Source: Deltaproteobacteria bacterium (GTDB lineage: Bacteria > Desulfobacterota > Desulfobulbia > Desulfobulbales > BM004). From it: a DNA stretch of 40,341 bases. The notes under the pieces were generated by a model. The model did no database searches and was not told the DNA's origin. It worked only from the letters and a program-made list of their open reading frames with translations. Location: assembly GCA_024639555.1 (NCBI GenBank), contig JAHEID010000003.1:1-40341 (forward strand), in the 5' to 3' direction. Made by a program: the position numbers and the translations under genes. Below are positions 153-8,746 of the stretch, one piece after another (within the stretch, counting starts at the first letter, position 1; every line of letters starts with the position of its first letter).

Positions 153-306
153 AATGAAATAGTTCAGATAAACAACAAAGCCAAGTAACAGACTATTATT
201 GAATTTGTCATTACTGCTGATATGTCTGACAGTGTCAAGTAGAAAAAACCTAGCCATTGCCCGTGTTTTATCGGGAGTTTTTCATTTCATATGCAGGGCA
301 CCGCCA

Positions 307-335
307 ACTGTAAAGATCTGCTATATCTTTACAGT
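307..335. repeat. Perfect 11-bp inverted repeat (hairpin)
   Basis: ACTGTAAAGAT at 307-317 is matched exactly by its reverse complement at 325-335 across a 7-nt loop. No T-tract follows on either strand, so a simple intrinsic terminator is unlikely. It could be an operator or an RNA hairpin. Confidence 0.6.
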
Positions 336-355
336 CGTGAATCATTCCTGAATTA

Positions 356-380
356 TCAAGGTATCCACAATACATCTTAA
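356..380 (-). repeat. 25-bp inverted repeat, family A, copy 1
   Basis: The arms are TCAAGGTAT and ACATCTTAA with a 7-nt centre. On the minus strand the centre reads ATTGTGG, matching the GTGG centre of the other family members. The family form is TCAAGATGT-N7-ATATSTTGA. Confidence 0.65.
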
Positions 381-414: not shown

Positions 415-476
415 CCCGACTCATAAATCACGATATCTATATCCATCCAGTACTGATATTTTGGATATATCTTGAC

Positions 477-501
477 TTTTGATTGCCAGTGGACATCTTG
501 A
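477..501 (+). repeat. 25-bp inverted repeat, family A, copy 3 (left arm degenerate)
   Basis: The centre CCAGTGG and the right arm ACATCTTGA match the family; the left arm TTTTGATTG has decayed. It lies about 47 bp from the TGGCAAG-core repeat at 526-544, the same distance as in two other modules. Confidence 0.5.
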
Positions 502-525
502 ATCATTTTTTGCAAGATGAAAGTT

Positions 526-544
526 AAGATGTGGCAAGACATCT
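526..544 (+). repeat. Inverted repeat with GGCAAG core, family B, copy 1
   Basis: AAGATGT and ACATCT flank GGCAAG. The arms resemble family A, but the centre is a different conserved word (TGGCAAG in other copies). It sits between family A copy 3 and the operator-like palindrome at 569-581. Confidence 0.6.
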
Positions 545-568
545 ATAATTTTTAAAACCTTTCAAATA

Positions 569-620: not shown

Positions 621-721
621 TATTCTTATATAAAAGTAACTCATACAACCTCTACAAAATCTTTTTAAATAAAGAGGTGTACATAGACTAAAAAATTATG
701 GCAAACAACAGGGTGAGAACT

Positions 722-1009
722 ATGTCTGATGTCACTGATGACAACAGCAAGAATCAGCAGGAGTCCGGAGAAGAATCGGAATTGGAAGCATCGAACGATA
801 CTGGGGAAAAAAAAGTACAGACAAAGTCCTATAACCACCTCAGAGGAGCAAGTTATATGGTTCTGCTCATTGCGGCTGTTTTTGTGATATACAAAATAAT
901 GACAAAAAGCTGTTGCGGAGCGTCTTGGTCAACGGTTGTCTTCACAGCTGTCCTCGGTTTTGGACTGCTGGCATATTCTTTCTATCACAAATCCCATGAT
1001 CATGATTGA
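722..1009 (+). CDS. Small two-segment membrane protein of unknown function
   Basis: The frame encodes about 95 residues from the ATG at 722. This start has GGTGAG just upstream, whereas the earlier ATG at 698 has no visible ribosome site. The N-terminal half is acidic and polar (about 45 residues). Two hydrophobic segments follow, around ASYMVLLIAAVFVIYKIM and WSTVVFTAVLGFGLLAYSF, with a CC pair between them. The C-terminus ends in KSHDHD, a possible metal-binding tail. No family is recognised. The gene has its own promoter with the shared operator-like palindrome and an intrinsic terminator at 1046-1069, so it looks monocistronic and expressed. Confidence 0.65.
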   Translation: MSDVTDDNSKNQQESGEESELEASNDTGEKKVQTKSYNHLRGASYMVLLIAAVFVIYKIMTKSCCGASWSTVVFTAVLGFGLLAYSFYHKSHDHD

Positions 1010-1078: not shown

Positions 1079-1103
1079 TTAAAATGTACAGTGGAAATAT
1101 TCA
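1079..1103 (+). repeat. 25-bp inverted repeat, family A, copy 4
   Basis: TTAAAATGT and AAATATTCA flank ACAGTGG. It lies directly after the terminator at 1046-1069, with its centre 47 bp from the family B centre at 1138. Confidence 0.6.
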
Positions 1104-1126
1104 GTCAGATTTTGTATGACAAAACC

Positions 1127-1147
1127 CAAGATGTTGGCAAGACATCT
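1127..1147 (+). repeat. Inverted repeat with TGGCAAG core, family B, copy 2
   Basis: CAAGATGT and ACATCT flank TGGCAAG. Layout and sequence follow copy 1 closely; both are followed by ATA and then, after some 25-30 bp, by the operator-like palindrome. Confidence 0.65.
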
Positions 1148-1172
1148 ATAGTTCATGAAAAATCCCTTTCCT

Positions 1173-1283: not shown

Positions 1284-1439
1284 TAAAATGCCAGTTTAAA
1301 GCCTTCATCGGGAAGTGTTGTTTTCTTTGAAGGCCATTTGTGTTTTTGACAAGGACCGAAAGAAGCGATTACTTATCACCAATGTATAAGTACAATAATT
1401 AGCAACAATCCTTTCTAATCCATCATCATGGAGACAAGT

Positions 1440-2906
1440 ATGCATAGTAAATATATTCGATCAATCTGTGCAGCCGTAGCCTCGGCGTTTCTGTATATAA
1501 ATGCTATGCCTGCTTTCGCCGACTACACCAGAGTTACTGTTACTGGTACTGTCAGTGGCGTAGAAAGTGATTTGGGTGGTGGAACCTTTTTCGATCTCGG
1601 AGTGGACGATACAATTACCGGGCAGTTTGTTTACGGCACCAGCGAGGCGGATGCGACTTCAGTAGATTCAGAGGGCACTTTTAGCAAAGATTACTTTTTT
1701 ACCGGAAACAACTACGGCGCATCCATTACGAGCGCGAGCGGATCGGCAGGTTTTCAGAACGATCGGCTATCGCTTTTTGTCGATAATAATTTTCCGGTCG
1801 AAGCCGAAGATGCCGCTATTGTTGATCTTATTAACGAGGAATTCGGACTGAACATTCAAGTGGGGAACCAGCTGGATGGCTGGGGGATTGACGCAGAGTC
1901 ACCAGACGCAATCTGGGATAATCAGAATGACTGCCTGGTTAATGGTGCAGATTTGGAAATTATATTGCTTGATGTTGATGCAACGATGTATGACGGTCTG
2001 CCAGCAGCCCCCAATCTTCCGGAGCCGCCTGCTCAGAATGTGATCGATGCCCCTTTGTTCTTTATCGAGGAGGCCAGTGGCTCAACAGGCTGCGAAAATA
2101 TAGTCTACTCCGCTTACGGCAGGATTACCGATCTCCAGTACGAGCTGATTGAAAATGTAGCGACTCCCTATAATGATACCCAGGTTGCTATCATCGATGA
2201 TTTCACCATCGTGAAAAACGGCAATACCATCTGGTCGGATTCCTTTGGTGATGGCATTGCACCGATTACCAATGACGACTATCTCGTGAATGGTGCCGTG
2301 GGGCCGGAGTCGGGTGGAAAGCTCGCAATGGATACCTCTGTGGGTTCGGAGATCACTACGGGTACGAGCGGGCTCGAGATCGTTCGCCACCGGGTGCGCA
2401 AGAAGACCTCCACTGGCAGTGATATTACCAAAGGCCTCAGGACCGACGATACCTTTTCGGTGACGGCGACCTTTGACCTGACAGTGCCCGAGTTGCCTGG
2501 TGAGCATTACGGGATCATGCTGGCTGATAGTGTCAGCGGCACACCGGGGAATGACCACCTGGGCCTGGGTGTGCGGCACACATTCAAAGGCGATTTGAAG
2601 ATTCAATTCCGTCGACATGACAATCAGACAGGTACAGTCACCGTAATTGACGAGGTGGCACTGGATACGACCTCAGGTCATGAGCAGATTACCCTGAAAC
2701 TCAACCGGGCGAGTACGGGTACCAATGCCATTACCGCCTCCTATACCTACGGAGCCGGGTCGCCTGTTCCCTTTGCATCTACCGCAACCATCTTCAACGG
2801 GGAGAATTATACCCGGGCACAGTTTATGGCAGTGACGCCTTTGGAAGTGCCGGAAAGCGCCGCGCCCAAGGCCATGCCCTGGTTGTTCTTGCTGCTCGAG
2901 GAATAA
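1440..2906 (+). CDS. Secreted protein of unknown function, C-terminus probably truncated
   Basis: The ATG at 1440 is preferred because GGAG lies 6 nt upstream; an in-frame ATG at 1428 has no ribosome site. The product has about 488 residues. It begins with a signal peptide (basic start, hydrophobic stretch, AFA-D cleavage site) followed by TVTGTVSGVESD and GQFVYGT, a style common in exported PEP-CTERM-like proteins. Two low-complexity beta-rich halves follow; no catalytic motif is recognised. The last residues MPWLFLLLEE look like the start of a hydrophobic sorting or anchor segment, but the frame stops there and a transposase remnant begins at the overlapping TAATG. Its GC-rich codons differ from the AT-rich surroundings, suggesting separate acquisition. 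Confidence 0.6.
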   Translation: MHSKYIRSICAAVASAFLYINAMPAFADYTRVTVTGTVSGVESDLGGGTFFDLGVDDTITGQFVYGTSEADATSVDSEGTFSKDYFFTGNNYGASITSASGSAGFQNDRLSLFVDNNFPVEAEDAAIVDLINEEFGLNIQVGNQLDGWGIDAESPDAIWDNQNDCLVNGADLEIILLDVDATMYDGLPAAPNLPEPPAQNVIDAPLFFIEEASGSTGCENIVYSAYGRITDLQYELIENVATPYNDTQVAIIDDFTIVKNGNTIWSDSFGDGIAPITNDDYLVNGAVGPESGGKLAMDTSVGSEITTGTSGLEIVRHRVRKKTSTGSDITKGLRTDDTFSVTATFDLTVPELPGEHYGIMLADSVSGTPGNDHLGLGVRHTFKGDLKIQFRRHDNQTGTVTVIDEVALDTTSGHEQITLKLNRASTGTNAITASYTYGAGSPVPFASTATIFNGENYTRAQFMAVTPLEVPESAAPKAMPWLFLLLEE

Positions 2907-3079
2907 TGGTTTTTATCAATGAGACAGATGTCATCCGTAAGATCCTGGAGCATCTTGGGCTATGGGAAGACAAGACTCCCCCAGAACGCGCTCCACCCGA
3001 TTCAATTCCCTAAAAGAATTACGAACCGTATGACGACGGCTGGCCGCAGTAAGAGGAACCGTCAGTTACTATCCATTGA
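2906..3079 (+). pseudogene. C-terminal remnant of an IS91-family transposase
   Basis: Reading from the ATG that overlaps the previous stop gives VFINETDVIRKILEHLGLW, then PPERAPPDSIP, an in-frame TAA, NYEPYDDGWPQ, a second TAA, and EEPSVTIH before TGA. This fits the tail of IS91-type (Y2) transposases, in which a VI.KILEHLGLW block is followed by a proline-rich linker. The two stops and the lack of any upstream catalytic part show that it is dead. Similarity is judged from remembered family pattern, not from a search. Confidence 0.65.
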
Positions 3080-3217
3080 GCCTGTCTTTTAAGATTATAT
3101 TTTCAGGCTGGTGGATTATTGCGCTGTTTGTTTTAACCAATAATCTAGATTTATTCCTCGCTTATCTATTTACGCATAACTGCTATATCGTTACACTCTT
3201 GAATAATTCTCAATGTG

Positions 3218-3242
3218 TCAAGATGTACAGTGGATATGTTGA
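3218..3242 (+). repeat. 25-bp inverted repeat, family A, copy 5
   Basis: TCAAGATGT and ATATGTTGA flank ACAGTGG. This is one of the cleanest copies and defines the family consensus. Confidence 0.7.
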
Positions 3243-3257
3243 CTCTCATCAAAGAGT

Positions 3258-3293
3258 AAGGGGACCAACCAATCACGGCTGATCCCCTTTTTT
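3258..3293 (+). terminator. Intrinsic terminator
   Basis: AAGGGGA pairs with TCCCCTT across an 18-nt loop, and the T-run continues to six T. It lies 16 bp after family A copy 5 and before copy 6, with no clear gene ending just upstream, as if transcription starting near copy 5 is stopped at once. Confidence 0.7.
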
Positions 3294-3380
3294 CGTTGAA
3301 TTTCAATGACGACACCCCGGACGGCTTTTTGTTTTTTGCCTCCCTCCATTGGTTTAAAATCGTTAATCTTTCCTATAGAA

Positions 3381-3405
3381 TCAAGGTGTACTTTGGACAT
3401 CTTGA
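3381..3405 (+). repeat. 25-bp inverted repeat, family A, copy 6
   Basis: TCAAGGTGT and ACATCTTGA flank ACTTTGG; the arms differ from perfect symmetry at one position. A TGGCAAG word follows at 3407-3413, closer than in the other modules. Confidence 0.7.
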
Positions 3406-3446
3406 ATGGCAAGCAATCTGAACTTTAGGCTCAATCTCCCCAAGCC

Positions 3447-3606: not shown

Positions 3607-3700
3607 GTTTTATTATCTCAAGAAAAAGCCAAACCTGCCGTGAGACAGGGACGGAAAATTGCGGGTCTTATAGGAGATAGCCGGGTTGCCTTGAAAAGGG

Positions 3701-3772: not shown

Positions 3773-4267
3773 ATGAACACAAGCGGAAGACATCGAATCT
3801 ACATCACCCTGCTGCTGGGAAGCTTGCTGATTGCTCCGTCGCAAGTATTCAGCGAGCCACCCCGTCCTGAAGCTGAAGCTCAAGCAGAACTTAAACAAGT
3901 TCTTAAAGCAATTTACGATGATGCTATGTCAGCAAATGTCGAAGGACTTACAACTAGTCATCTTATTTCATCTAAGTTTACTAAATTTGGACCTCGAAAT
4001 TTCAGTAGACAAACAGCCGATGAAACGAATGAATCAGAGGCATCTTTCTTTACTTCAATCAAAGATCTAAAAGTGGAACTAAAAGATGTCAAGATAGATG
4101 TCTTTGGAGAAGTCGCAGTTACAACATTCTATCCTCATTTTTCATTCGTGAAGGATGACCAACTTAAAGAAGGCTCCAGTCGACAGACTCTTGTCTTTCT
4201 AAAAACAGATCAGGGCTGGAAAATCATTCATGAGCATGGAACTCCTAAGAAGTGTTTCACTGAATGA
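3773..4267 (+). CDS. Exported NTF2/SnoaL-like (DUF4440-type) protein
   Basis: The product has 164 residues. The start has GAGGAAAAG directly upstream. A signal peptide is clear: a basic start, the hydrophobic ITLLLGSLLIAPSQVFS, and cleavage before EPP. The mature part looks like one cone-shaped NTF2/SnoaL domain: an N-terminal helix with LKAIYDDAMSANVEGL, a middle strand region, and the closing TLVFLKTDQGWKIIHEHGTP, the typical end of nuclear-transport-factor-2-like and ketosteroid-isomerase-like proteins. Such domains bind small ligands or act as scaffolds, so no activity can be assigned. The gene belongs to the accessory region and shares the word ATTACTTATCACC upstream (3740-3752) with the 1440 gene (1368-1380). 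Confidence 0.7.
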   Translation: MNTSGRHRIYITLLLGSLLIAPSQVFSEPPRPEAEAQAELKQVLKAIYDDAMSANVEGLTTSHLISSKFTKFGPRNFSRQTADETNESEASFFTSIKDLKVELKDVKIDVFGEVAVTTFYPHFSFVKDDQLKEGSSRQTLVFLKTDQGWKIIHEHGTPKKCFTE

Positions 4268-4599: not shown

Positions 4600-4607
4600 A
4601 TGTGATA

Positions 4608-4632
4608 TTAAGATGTACGTTGGATATGTTAA
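4608..4632 (+). repeat. 25-bp inverted repeat, family A, copy 7
   Basis: TTAAGATGT and ATATGTTAA flank ACGTTGG. Its centre is 47 bp from that of the family B repeat at 4655-4679. Confidence 0.7.
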
Positions 4633-4654
4633 GTCAGAGCTTGAATTACTAAAC

Positions 4655-4679
4655 TCAACATTATGGCAAGGATATTTAA
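4655..4679 (+). repeat. Inverted repeat with TGGCAAG core, family B, copy 3
   Basis: TCAACATTA and GATATTTAA flank TGGCAAG. It lies midway between two family A copies, 47 and 45 bp centre to centre. Confidence 0.55.
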
Positions 4680-4699
4680 CTTTCAGCGACAGAGAAAAG

Positions 4700-4724
4700 T
4701 TAACATATCCAGTGGATATATTGA
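4700..4724 (+). repeat. 25-bp inverted repeat, family A, copy 8
   Basis: TTAACATAT and ATATATTGA flank CCAGTGG. It is the last copy seen, 90 bp before the tRNA-Glu fragment; none was noticed in the core genome beyond. Confidence 0.65.
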
Positions 4725-4814
4725 ATCTGATTCTGACGGCTTTTAAATCACATAGACGGCGTTAAACGGACATAGCCGGAGGTAAAGTCAGGTAAAGTAC
4801 TCTCAAAATTGGCC

Positions 4815-4858
4815 TTTCACGCCGGCGACACGAGTTCAAATCTCGTTGGGGGCGCCAC
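4815..4858 (+). other. 3' fragment of tRNA-Glu (TTC), probable island attachment site
   Basis: The sequence starts in the anticodon loop (CTTTCAC, anticodon TTC) and runs through the 3' anticodon strand, variable loop, T arm (ACGAG-TTCAAAT-CTCGT), acceptor 3' strand TGGGGGC, a discriminator G and CCA. The 5' half (acceptor, D arm and 5' anticodon strand) is absent: the bases before it (AAATTGG) cannot pair. Such a truncated tRNA 3' end is the classical direct-repeat scar of a tyrosine-integrase element inserted in a tRNA gene; the intact tRNA would lie to the left, outside the window. The core gene purL ends 28 bp further on. Confidence 0.75.
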
Positions 4859-4885
4859 ATTATAGGAGTTAAGGCCGCAAAGTGT

Positions 4886-7800
4886 TTATTCTGTTTCCCT
4901 GCACCACTGGTAAGCATTCTGGAACATCTGCAGCCAAGGGGTAACCCTCAGTTCCTTTTTCATCTCTTCAGGGAGCCAGTGGGCCTGCCATTTCAAAAAG
5001 GAACGCTCAGGGTGCGGCATCATGGCAAGATGTCTTCCATCATTTGAACAGAGTCCGGTTAAGCCCTCAGGAGAGCCATTCGGATTAAAGGGATATTGCT
5101 CGGTCGGCAAGCCTTCATCATCTACGAATGCCAGGGCGGCTAAACCATCGTTGCTGATCTTTTCGTGAATTGTTCCATCCGGGAACTGAAGGCGTCCTTC
5201 CCCATGCGCCACATGAATACCAAAAGTCAAATTTTCCATGCCCCTGAGCATGATTGCCTTGCTGTTCAGTACCTTTACAGTTGACCAGCGGGACTCGAAA
5301 CGGCCTGACACATTCCTGACAAATCTCGGCTGATCGGCAGGTTCAATTCCCTGCCACGGCACCCAGCCGAGAAGGGCGAAAAGCTGGCAGCCGTTGCATA
5401 CGCCCAGGGAAAAAGTATCAGCGCGTGAGTAAAAATCATCAAACATTTTTTTCAGCCGTTCATTGAAGAGAATAGTCGCCGCCCAGCCCTTGGCACTTTC
5501 CGGCACATCGGCATAGGAAAACCCTCCCACTGCTGCCAGTCCCCTGAAGCCTTCAAGCCCTACTTTTCCTGCAAGCAGGTCTGTCATGGCAATATCCCAT
5601 GGCTCAAACCCGGCAGCATAAAATGCTGATGTCATCTCCCTGTCGCTGTTGCTTCCTTCATCTCTTAGGATGGCTACTTGGGGCTTATCGGGACTTTCAA
5701 GAACCTCTTGCGATGTTTCCCTGGGGGTAAAGCCCATGAAATATTGGGGGCCCTGCCGATCATAAATGTTTTGTTTTTCTTCGACAGCGCAAACAGGATT
5801 CATCTGCAACCTTTCAAGCTGATAACTTGTCTCCTCCCAAACCTGGCGAAGCTCCTGCATGCTTTCAGCAAGAACTGGCTCGTTGTTAAACTGTACCTGT
5901 ATGTGCTTTTCAGAAGTCGTCCGGCCAATAACCGCAAAAGGGATGGCCCTTTCCGTGAGCAGGCCTTCAACTTCCTGAACCTTTTCAGGTGTGCACTCAA
6001 CAACCAGGCCCAATTCTTCAGAAAAAAGATGCTCGATAGGGCTCCCGGTTCCCCTTAGGTCAATATCAAGACCACAGTTGCCCCCAAAGGCCATTTCAAG
6101 AAGGGTGGTGATCAGGCCTCCGTCACTTCTGTCATGCCCGGAGAGAACCAGTTCTTGGGCGATGCATTCCTGCAAGGCATTAAACCCTTTTTTCACCAGG
6201 GTCGGGCTATCCATATCCGGTGCAGTATTGCCTATCTGCTTAACGGTCTGGGCAAGAGCTGATCCTCCCAGCCGGTTTTGTCCCTGTCCAAGGTCTACAA
6301 ACAACAGGATACTTCCGCCGGCTCTTTTTAAATCAGGTGTAACAACCCTGGTGATATCCTCCATGGTTGCATAGACGGAAATGACTAATTCTCTTGGTGA
6401 TTTTACCGTTTCTTCATCTACGCGGGTAGCCATGGAAAGGCTGTCTTTACCACCGTCAACTGCAATGCCCAACGATATCATGGCATCACGCATGGCGCAG
6501 GCAGCATCATAGAGCGCCGCTCCCTCACCGGGTAATTTCGGGGCCCACATCCAGTTGGCAGAGCACTTTACCCCTTCCAGGGTATCAATTTGAGCCCACA
6601 CCAGGTTGGTCAGCGCTTCACCGACTGCCATCCGGGCTCCTGCCATGGGGTCTACCAGCATTTTTATGGGTTGCTCGCCAATTGCTGTTGCCGCGCCGCT
6701 CAGTTCAAAATGACTCTGGGCAATAACAGCAACATCAGCAACGGTTGCCTGCAAAGGCCCGCAGCATTGCTGTTGGGCAATAAGCCCGGTGACGCTCCGG
6801 TCGACTTTATTAGTGAGAAAACGCTTGGAACCAACTGAGACAAGGCGCAAAACATTTTTCAAGGCTTCACGCACCGTCAAATTATGCGGCAGTTCCAGGG
6901 GGGCGAGTGGTTCTTGCAGCCGCCTGTCATAAAATGTCTTCTGGGGAATGTTGCCAAGAACTTCATGCAACTCCAGATCTACGGGCGTGGTGTTGTCCTG
7001 CCCGTCGGAAACAACAAAACGACCATCGCCTGTCACTGTGCCCAGAACTTCACAGTTTACCTTTTCTCTTTTACAAATCTCCTTAAATTCTCCGATGTTC
7101 TCCGGACGGATCAGCAGGCCGTTACGCTCCTGGTACTCAGCCACATAGATTTCAAGGACCGACATGGTGGGATCGCCTACCTTGATTTCTCTGATATCAA
7201 TCCTGCCCCCGGATTTTTCTACCAGCTCTTTAAGCACATTTCCCGGTCCGCCGGCTCCCTGGTCATGGATAACATCTATGAGAGACTTTTCCCCCATCTC
7301 TATACAGGTACGGATGGCACGATTCATTTTCTGTTCCATTTCCGCATCACCGCGCTGCACTGCATTGAAGTCAAGGTCCTCTACATTATCTCCCTGCAGC
7401 ATGCTGGAGGCTGCTCCACCGCCAAAACCCACCCTGTAGGCCGGCCCGCCGATCTGGACAATAAACATGTCTTTTTCAGCATCTGCCTTTTCTATATGCC
7501 TGTCATCAATCTGCCCAATACCTCCTGTAAACATGATCGGCTTCAGAAACCCCCAGCGCTCACCGTTGGAAAGACGCATATCAAATGACCTCGTAAAACC
7601 CTGTATAATCGGTTCACCAAACTTGTTTCCATAATCAGAGGCTCCGTTGCTGGCCTCAATTTCAATTTCAAGACCACTCGCCAGATTGGAAGGATAGGCA
7701 AAACCTTTTTCCTCCCAGGGTAAATCATAGTCCGGAATTTGCAGGTTCGCGACGCAGTATGCAGCAGTACCACCCACCACGAGTCCGCCCCTGCCTGTTC

Positions 7801-8701
7801 CCTGGATATCCCTGATCCTGCCGCCTGTCCCCGTTTCAGCCCCGGGAAAGGGGGCGACACCAGTTGGGAAGTTATGGGTTTCAGCAGTAAAGATTATGTG
7901 ATAGGGCAACTTGCGTTTGGTAAAAGGAGAAGGGTTTCCGGGGCTCTCCGGCAGGATGGTGGAAATATCCCGGCCGCGGATGCCGCTGGAGTTGTCCTTA
8001 AAAGCTATAATACTGTTGGTCCCATTGGCTTCCAGGGTAGACTGCACAATTTCCATCAGCGTCTCGGGTTCTTCCTTTTCATCAATAATATGCTTGCCGC
8101 GAAAAAAACCATGGCGTGAATGCTCGCTGTTGGCATTATTTAAGTCCATGATTTCTACGATGGTCGGGTTGCGCCCATGCTTTGCGACAAAGTAGTCATA
8201 ATAGAAATTTCTATCCCACTCATCCATTGAGATGCCAGGTAACTCCTGAAGAGCCGCTGGTCCTTTTTCCATCAGAGGAACATCGAAGACGCCATCAGGG
8301 GCGATGCCGGTTTCAAATGTTGAAAGCGGTTCGGGGTATAGACATTCCGTCATACGGTCATGATGCTCGGCTATAAACTTTTTCCGGTCACTAACGTCTT
8401 TAACAAGATATCTCCGGGAGCGTTCCATGCGGGTAACCTTGTTTAGGCCGGTAGCATGACAGATTGAAACCATGTTGGACGACCAGGCAGTTGCAAAATT
8501 CAGCCTGGGTCCAAGCTCCACCACATCTTTTTCTGCCGCCAGAAAATGTGAGCGTATACCGACTGTTTCCAAAATAAATCCATCTGCAAGAAGAAACTGC
8601 AACCTGGATATTTCCCCATCTGTCAGGGGTCCTGTCGATTCAATATTAAAGCAGAACTCCTTTTCATTGTTTACCTGCCTGTATAAATGTCTGATATGCA
8701 T
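4886..8701 (-). CDS. purL: Phosphoribosylformylglycinamidine synthase, single-chain
   Basis: This enzyme makes FGAM from FGAR, glutamine and ATP, step four of purine synthesis, in the cytoplasm. The protein has about 1270 residues, the long single-chain form in which the PurS-like, ATP-binding and glutaminase parts are fused. Visible landmarks are the N-terminal PurS-like part, NANSEHSRHGFF, the FTAETHNFP loop, DQGAGGPGNVLKE, DGGKDSLSMA, and the C-terminal class I glutaminase with the nucleophile Cys in GVCNGCQLFALLGW and the His/Glu in MMPHPERS. The track begins at a GTG (8746); ATG codons exist at 8713 and 8701, and 8701 has GAGG 6-7 nt upstream, so it is preferred. The gene appears monocistronic. 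Confidence 0.95.
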   Translation of the reverse strand: MHIRHLYRQVNNEKEFCFNIESTGPLTDGEISRLQFLLADGFILETVGIRSHFLAAEKDVVELGPRLNFATAWSSNMVSICHATGLNKVTRMERSRRYLVKDVSDRKKFIAEHHDRMTECLYPEPLSTFETGIAPDGVFDVPLMEKGPAALQELPGISMDEWDRNFYYDYFVAKHGRNPTIVEIMDLNNANSEHSRHGFFRGKHIIDEKEEPETLMEIVQSTLEANGTNSIIAFKDNSSGIRGRDISTILPESPGNPSPFTKRKLPYHIIFTAETHNFPTGVAPFPGAETGTGGRIRDIQGTGRGGLVVGGTAAYCVANLQIPDYDLPWEEKGFAYPSNLASGLEIEIEASNGASDYGNKFGEPIIQGFTRSFDMRLSNGERWGFLKPIMFTGGIGQIDDRHIEKADAEKDMFIVQIGGPAYRVGFGGGAASSMLQGDNVEDLDFNAVQRGDAEMEQKMNRAIRTCIEMGEKSLIDVIHDQGAGGPGNVLKELVEKSGGRIDIREIKVGDPTMSVLEIYVAEYQERNGLLIRPENIGEFKEICKREKVNCEVLGTVTGDGRFVVSDGQDNTTPVDLELHEVLGNIPQKTFYDRRLQEPLAPLELPHNLTVREALKNVLRLVSVGSKRFLTNKVDRSVTGLIAQQQCCGPLQATVADVAVIAQSHFELSGAATAIGEQPIKMLVDPMAGARMAVGEALTNLVWAQIDTLEGVKCSANWMWAPKLPGEGAALYDAACAMRDAMISLGIAVDGGKDSLSMATRVDEETVKSPRELVISVYATMEDITRVVTPDLKRAGGSILLFVDLGQGQNRLGGSALAQTVKQIGNTAPDMDSPTLVKKGFNALQECIAQELVLSGHDRSDGGLITTLLEMAFGGNCGLDIDLRGTGSPIEHLFSEELGLVVECTPEKVQEVEGLLTERAIPFAVIGRTTSEKHIQVQFNNEPVLAESMQELRQVWEETSYQLERLQMNPVCAVEEKQNIYDRQGPQYFMGFTPRETSQEVLESPDKPQVAILRDEGSNSDREMTSAFYAAGFEPWDIAMTDLLAGKVGLEGFRGLAAVGGFSYADVPESAKGWAATILFNERLKKMFDDFYSRADTFSLGVCNGCQLFALLGWVPWQGIEPADQPRFVRNVSGRFESRWSTVKVLNSKAIMLRGMENLTFGIHVAHGEGRLQFPDGTIHEKISNDGLAALAFVDDEGLPTEQYPFNPNGSPEGLTGLCSNDGRHLAMMPHPERSFLKWQAHWLPEEMKKELRVTPWLQMFQNAYQWCRETE

Positions 8702-8746
8702 CACGGTCCTCATCTGTTCGTTCTGTGAAAATGCTTCGAAAAACAC

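Follow-up and report, generated by a model that had tools for sequence, protein, structure and literature searches.

A displaced tRNA-Glu 3' end beside purL as the probable attachment scar of an old genomic island

Tycheposons and other cargo islands are anchored at tRNA genes and bounded by tRNA remnants. Islands of this sort at tRNA genes are mentioned in PMC11389934 and PMC10872708. Genomic islands in tRNA genes have been catalogued by Islander, which requires an integrase gene in the interval (PMC4383910), and tRNA fragments in prokaryotic annotations, together with the 44-bp tRNA-Gln repeat of PYG1 of Pyrococcus yayanosii, are treated in PMC9897764. The displaced tRNA end that we describe is of a known kind, bearing the Islander signature. 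As in Islander islands, a regenerated tRNA gene stands at one end and a displaced 3' fragment at the other, and the crossover lies in the anticodon loop, as at sub-site A (PMC4383910). Unlike Islander islands, this one has yielded no integrase gene of its own, and its ends lie on separate contigs.

What lies beside purL in this genome? The window, the whole stretch of 40,341 nucleotides analysed here, is located on contig C219 of the source assembly, G000, a metagenome bin of 233 contigs that is 85% complete. A sequence-only reading of the window had reported a tRNA-Glu 3' piece, from the anticodon loop to CCA and without the 5' half, at 4815-4858. A search of the genome against itself, the Rfam tRNA model and ARAGORN all bear this out; the site was correct, and the edges had been set 4 nt late on the left and 1 nt late on the right, the actual span being 4811-4857. 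These 47 nt match the 3' portion of the gene for intact tRNA-Glu(TTC) in G000 at 98% identity (E 1.4e-16, own-genome search), which is far beyond chance. The span begins with the last three bases (GGC) of the 5' anticodon strand and continues through the loop CTTTCAC, the 3' anticodon strand, the variable loop, the T arm and the 3' acceptor strand to CCA, the 5' half being absent. The sole mismatch (46/47 identical) falls within the acceptor strand, where the fragment reads GGGGGC for GGGGAC. Because the Rfam tRNA model gives it 26.4 bits against a gathering score of 29, and the D arm is missing, we regard it as a fragment and not a gene; ARAGORN called no tRNA in the window. The end of purL, at 4886, is 28 bp to the right. 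To the left lies accessory DNA, as the same reading had described, comprising repeats of about 80 nt, three ORFs (one with a Pfam match), a 35-codon remnant and a riboswitch (Table 1).

Table 1. Coordinates of the island features and of the flanking core gene in the 40,341-nt window
Feature	Position	Strand	Evidence
Dispersed repeat, full copy	476..562	+	nhmmer 56.7 bits
103-aa orphan cargo ORF, hydrophobic segments	698..1009	+	no Pfam or PHROG match
Dispersed repeat, full copy	1079..1166	+	nhmmer 71.3 bits
492-aa orphan cargo ORF, signal-peptide-like N-terminus	1428..2906	+	no Pfam or PHROG match
Dispersed repeat, half copy	3213..3245	+	nhmmer 21.1 bits
Putative internal relic of the island left end: terminator-like hairpin and GACGGCTTTT at 3320-3329, without tRNA	3246..3410	+	
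c-di-GMP-I-GGC riboswitch aptamer, preceding the SnoaL-like ORF	3619..3694	+	Rfam RF03167, 69.5 bits, gathering 59
164-aa cargo ORF, signal-peptide-like N-terminus, SnoaL-like domain	3773..4267	+	Pfam SnoaL_3 E 5.9e-16
Dispersed repeat (attC-like), full copy ending TGGCAAG	4603..4685	+	nhmmer 56.9 bits; model R1 59.5 bits
Dispersed repeat, half copy (left core)	4699..4736	+	nhmmer 15.6 bits, model positions 7-44
Island right end (putative attP arm region): GACGGCTTTT at 4735-4744, related direct repeats GACGGCGTTAAACGG	4733..4810	+	homologous in G001, G008
Displaced tRNA-Glu(TTC) 3' end, probable attR core, 47 bp	4811..4857	+	98% to C156 copy; sub-threshold Rfam, no ARAGORN call
Beginning of the original intrinsic terminator of tRNA-Glu (CACATTATAGGAGTTAAGGCCGCA); 3' half deleted	4858..4881	+	alignment to G004, G005, G008
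purL, core gene flanking the scar	4886..8746	-	1286-aa ORF; genus orthologues 83-94%

An intact tRNA-Glu(TTC) gene with a matching 3' end had been expected elsewhere in the genome, and it is present on a separate contig (C156:13085-13162), directly after tRNA-Lys and followed by accessory DNA of the same kind as that in the window. A relative in which tRNA-Glu and purL are neighbours had likewise been anticipated. In the congener G004, the tRNA-Lys/tRNA-Glu pair and purL are convergent on one contig (C6), 2.2 kb apart, with a single 719-aa ORF and no island between tRNA-Glu and purL. Aligned to G000, this contig matches the window first in purL (window 5371-4901) and then over window 4881-4811, which is the fragment plus 24 bp past CCA; from the final base of CCA it matches C156 across tRNA-Lys and on into the core genes that follow. 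These two alignments share exactly 47 bp, in the single tRNA-Glu gene of G004, and G004:C6 is an empty site that aligns to both G000 junctions. The tRNA's own terminator (GGAGTTAAG...) begins with these 24 bases past CCA; G005 and G008 retain it whole, and half of it is deleted in the window. The 24-base segment (4858-4881) aligns with the bases 3' of the intact G004 tRNA-Glu as well as with the complete terminators 3' of the G005 and G008 fragments. The terminator after the intact C156 gene is a different one. Since the native terminator adjoins the window fragment and a different one adjoins the C156 gene, it is the native 3' end that lies beside purL, and incoming DNA completed the working gene. 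By these alignments the window contains the native 3' end in its displaced position (attR), and the 3' half of the working gene came from the element (attL). The orientation and flanking core genes of the two G000 ends fit the G004 locus; C156 and C219 are unjoined in the assembly, where the island is seen as two ends and not whole, and we presume that they are physically continuous.

We propose that 4811-4857 is the right attachment site (attR) left by an old element, which a tyrosine integrase would have inserted at the anticodon loop of tRNA-Glu(TTC), and we put the probability of this at about 0.93. First, an attP with a copy of the tRNA 3' half would have been recombined with the chromosomal tRNA-Glu(TTC) gene by a tyrosine integrase. 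Second, the element's 3' half and a new terminator would have completed the functional tRNA-Glu gene now on C156, and the native 3' half and native terminator would have been displaced to the far side of the insert, beside purL. The sequence-only reading had already taken the displaced tRNA end for an attachment scar at the edge of an island, and the two halves, the G004 empty site, the terminator and the motifs at the island ends all support that view.

These end motifs are copies of the 10-mer GA[CG]GGCTTTT, which is found at the C156 left end and the window right end, on one strand throughout. The variant GACGGCTTTT is present at both G000 island ends and, in two copies on that strand, at the right end of G008. 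The variant GAGGGCTTTT is present on one strand at both inner ends of an element in G026, a member of the same order but of another family, and also in the sequence after tRNA-Glu(CTC) on C28 of G000. Positions 3320 and 4735 are the only two occurrences of the 10-mer in the 40-kb window (0.34 copies expected), and as 6 of 100 shuffles of the window reach two copies, the number alone is only mildly unusual. Attachment sites are expected to have direct repeats common to both inner ends, and GA[CG]GGCTTTT provides them; we read it as a candidate arm-type binding site. In G026, a gene for a 351-aa integrase begins 16 bp past tRNA-Glu, a phage-like region with a Zot-like gene follows, and the tRNA-Glu 3' fragment recurs about 12 kb away. 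It is from this element, together with the att architecture of our locus, that we infer the role of an integrase in G000. Two further genomes carry inserts between tRNA-Glu and a 3' copy: that of G011 is about 1 kb long with one NYN-domain ORF (L102 2160-3140), and that of G035 is about 2.3 kb long with ORFs of 337 and 251 aa (L104 1040-3290). Neither insert contains an integrase, and both G035 ORFs are without a Pfam match; they could be a defence or toxin-antitoxin pair.

Might the tRNA gene instead have been partially duplicated by ordinary homologous or illegitimate recombination, with no integrase involved? No integrase gene accompanies the fragment, and its one mismatch to the intact copy also suits such an event. 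Against a duplication, however, the anticodon stem-loop holds the breakpoint and CCA is the exact end of the match, both as in an att site, the native terminator is directly to the right of the fragment, and the direct repeats of the island end are found again at the integrase-bearing element in the same tRNA. We therefore consider duplication very unlikely and retain integrase-mediated insertion.

An integrase gene next to the intact tRNA-Glu had also been predicted, and none lies there in the assembly. The five tyrosine recombinases of G000 are XerC, XerD, the integron integrase IntI and a tandem XerC-like pair, and the 85%-complete assembly contains no integrase of the tRNA type. The integrase of the element would be either gone or unassembled. 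Because no tRNA-type integrase remains in the assembly, the scar is taken to be old; because no tyrosine integrase gene lies inside the island in this 85%-complete assembly, we class it as a degraded island and not as an active one of Islander grade; and because the contigs are unjoined as well, we speak of a scar and not of a mapped active island. The insert is presumably immobile now, since the acceptor strand is mutated and half of the native terminator is deleted. That the fragment is the still-active attR of a mobile island seems improbable. The core is intact at 46 of its 47 bases and the G004 site is perfectly restored, as clean excision would leave it, but the cognate integrase is absent from the assembly, the native terminator is damaged, and in relatives the core is reduced to 16 nt (G005) or lost from the purL flank (G003).

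The relatives place the insertion in the history of the genus. G001 and G008 have the fragment and the native terminator at the same place beside purL, and about 85 bp to the left of the fragment, containing GACGGCGTTAAACG-type direct repeats, are homologous in G000, G001 and G008. The same fragment beside purL in relatives that lack the island had been named as a finding that would speak against an island edge; G001 and G008 carry the same island end left of the fragment, so that they have the insertion in common with G000 and do not count as relatives without it. In G005, a 16-nt tRNA 3' stub and the terminator remain at purL, and the flank beyond the stub contains a TPR-protein region and then a copy of the dispersed repeat at the assembled end. 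The fragment is lost from the purL flank in G003 and adjoins a different gene in G002. A misassembly that joined an accessory contig to purL might be suspected in a bin as fragmented and incomplete as G000, but it is refuted by the same junction in the independently assembled G001 and G008, and by the junction with the stub in G005; its likelihood is negligible. That the fragment serves the host, perhaps by terminating purL or in the form of a processed small RNA, could be argued from its retention beside purL in three species. In the window, however, the acceptor strand is mutated and the terminator half deleted, and the fragment is shortened in G005 and absent in G003, yet purL is intact. 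Common descent of the insertion accounts for the conservation beside purL, and a host function is scarcely credible.

The purL tree, (G008,G002),(G004,((G000,G005),(G001,G003))), gives moderate support (85/89) for a position of G004 inside the group. As the insert-free G004 nests among insert carriers, either the island would have been lost from G004 by clean excision or the others would have gained the insert more than once.

Window 3246-3410 aligns to the sequences that follow tRNA-Glu(TTC) on C156 and tRNA-Glu(CTC) on C28, and such an internal copy of a post-tRNA end suggests a composite island. A 35-codon remnant at window 2906-3010 is 85% identical to the terminal part of a 285-aa frame located on C205; it is probably what the sequence-only reading called a transposase remnant, and a Pfam search with these transposase-like 35 aa returned no matches. 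The SnoaL-like protein encoded behind the riboswitch is probably secreted.

The less ordinary part is the repeat-punctuated cargo, which is worth a separate look. The repeat is about 80 bases long (consensus AAGTATCAAGATGTACAGTGGATATGTTGAGTCAGATTTTGTATGACAAAACTGTAGATGTTGGCAAGNNATCTG), with two palindromic cores and a near-invariant TGGCAAG, and its copies alternate with single-gene units, ORFs without core function, in the window, L006, L025, L026 and other loci. On G000 contigs with multiple copies, the full repeats have one orientation per contig. A model search found 43 copies in G005, 30 in G000, 21 in G007, 15 in G001, 8 in G008 and 7 in G003; G004 has no copy, and hardly any lie beyond the genus. 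A strict pattern across 84,980 genomes returned only 13 stretches, almost all of them from genomes with the label of Desulfobulbaceae or their relatives, and viral contigs gave none. The open-access literature yielded no account of the repeat; one may exist elsewhere. At tRNA-Glu(TTC), tRNA-Glu(CTC) and tRNA-Pro(GGG), and at tRNA-Asn of G005, the first repeat lies 133-147 bases past the tRNA 3' end, and an integrase relic is found between a tRNA and the first repeat in G003, G007 and G008. Among 83 copies, no pair keeps homology on both sides, with the exception of one self-overlap inside the window. For example, C226 and its orthologous G005 counterpart are 99% identical upstream and diverge right after GGCAAG, and several other pairs match downstream only. 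Because 11 copies share an extended upstream module (terminator and hairpin), part of the upstream similarity belongs to the repeat itself. From these alignments, the break of homology at the repeat looks like cassette exchange.

Among the well-studied systems of bacteria, only integrons are known to use a dedicated site for the shuffling of single-gene cassettes. A canonical attC can be rejected for the repeat: the R''/R' boxes (RYYYAAC...GTTRRRY) are present in 0/58 full copies, RNAalifold finds no consensus pairs, and IntI is located not beside an array but on C178, where the 15 kb examined contain no dispersed repeat. IntI itself (TIGR02249, 469 bits) lies at a contig end (L030 50-2340, G000:C178); upstream of it, on the minus strand, a SOUL-like ORF occurs together with a sequence that looks, on visual inspection, like a classical attC but fails the strict R-box pattern. 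A dif/Xer module was likewise considered for the repeat, which resembles one in one arm only. Nor is the tandem XerC-like pair on C200 supported as the recombinase of the repeat. Its distribution mismatches that of the repeat, since close relatives of the pair are confined to G000, to G005 in part and to the distant G017 and G024, and G007 and G001 carry many repeats without it. The pair (L007 1960-4400, G000:C200) has inverted ends ATACGTAACAAAA and repeated AGCTGCTATCT, and it looks like an insertion inside the hairpin upstream of a repeat; window 180-360 is homologous to the C200 site and is without the pair. In G005:C166, a 6.5-kb island with four repeats and no integrase (L171 3816-10338) is flanked by an 18-bp direct repeat TGGCAATCACTCCAGGTG, with one mismatch at the right end, and G000 has the corresponding empty site. 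We raise tentatively, as a possibility that we consider rather doubtful, that an undescribed integron-like system of Desulfobulbaceae exchanges cassettes at this repeat, with a non-canonical site, a putative recombinase, and arrays that directly follow tRNA genes in islands that have decayed or lack an integrase. If it were a true exchange site, the repeat would gain in importance.

The scar places the boundary of a lineage-specific island at single-base resolution and, with the empty site as control, offers an insertion that can be dated. It further shows that tRNA-Glu is a recurrent integration target across the order, with an integrase in G026 and with integrase-less inserts in G011 and G035. 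The filamentous-phage-like G026 element resembles the G000 island in its tRNA, crossover region, GA[CG]GGCTTTT end motif and orientation; it differs in that it keeps its integrase along with Zot-like and other phage-like genes, spans about 12 kb and has no dispersed repeats. Similarly, the PYG1 repeat is a partial 3' tRNA copy of nearly equal length that was formed by integration, whereas here the host is bacterial, the integrase is lost and the native terminator can be recognised beside the displaced copy. Like tycheposons, the island carries tRNA-anchored cargo bounded by tRNA remnants, and integrase relics lie beside tRNA genes of its congeners. Unlike tycheposons, its assembled parts have so far yielded no tycheposon recombinase, replication or packaging genes, and in G000 its cargo is punctuated by a dispersed repeat. 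Finally, the repeat arrays differ from integron cassette arrays without an integrase (CALIN) in lacking the attC boxes and a consensus fold and in the distance of IntI from any repeat. In the manner of CALIN arrays, they consist of single-gene units between repeats that keep one orientation per array, and homology between genomes stops at the repeat.
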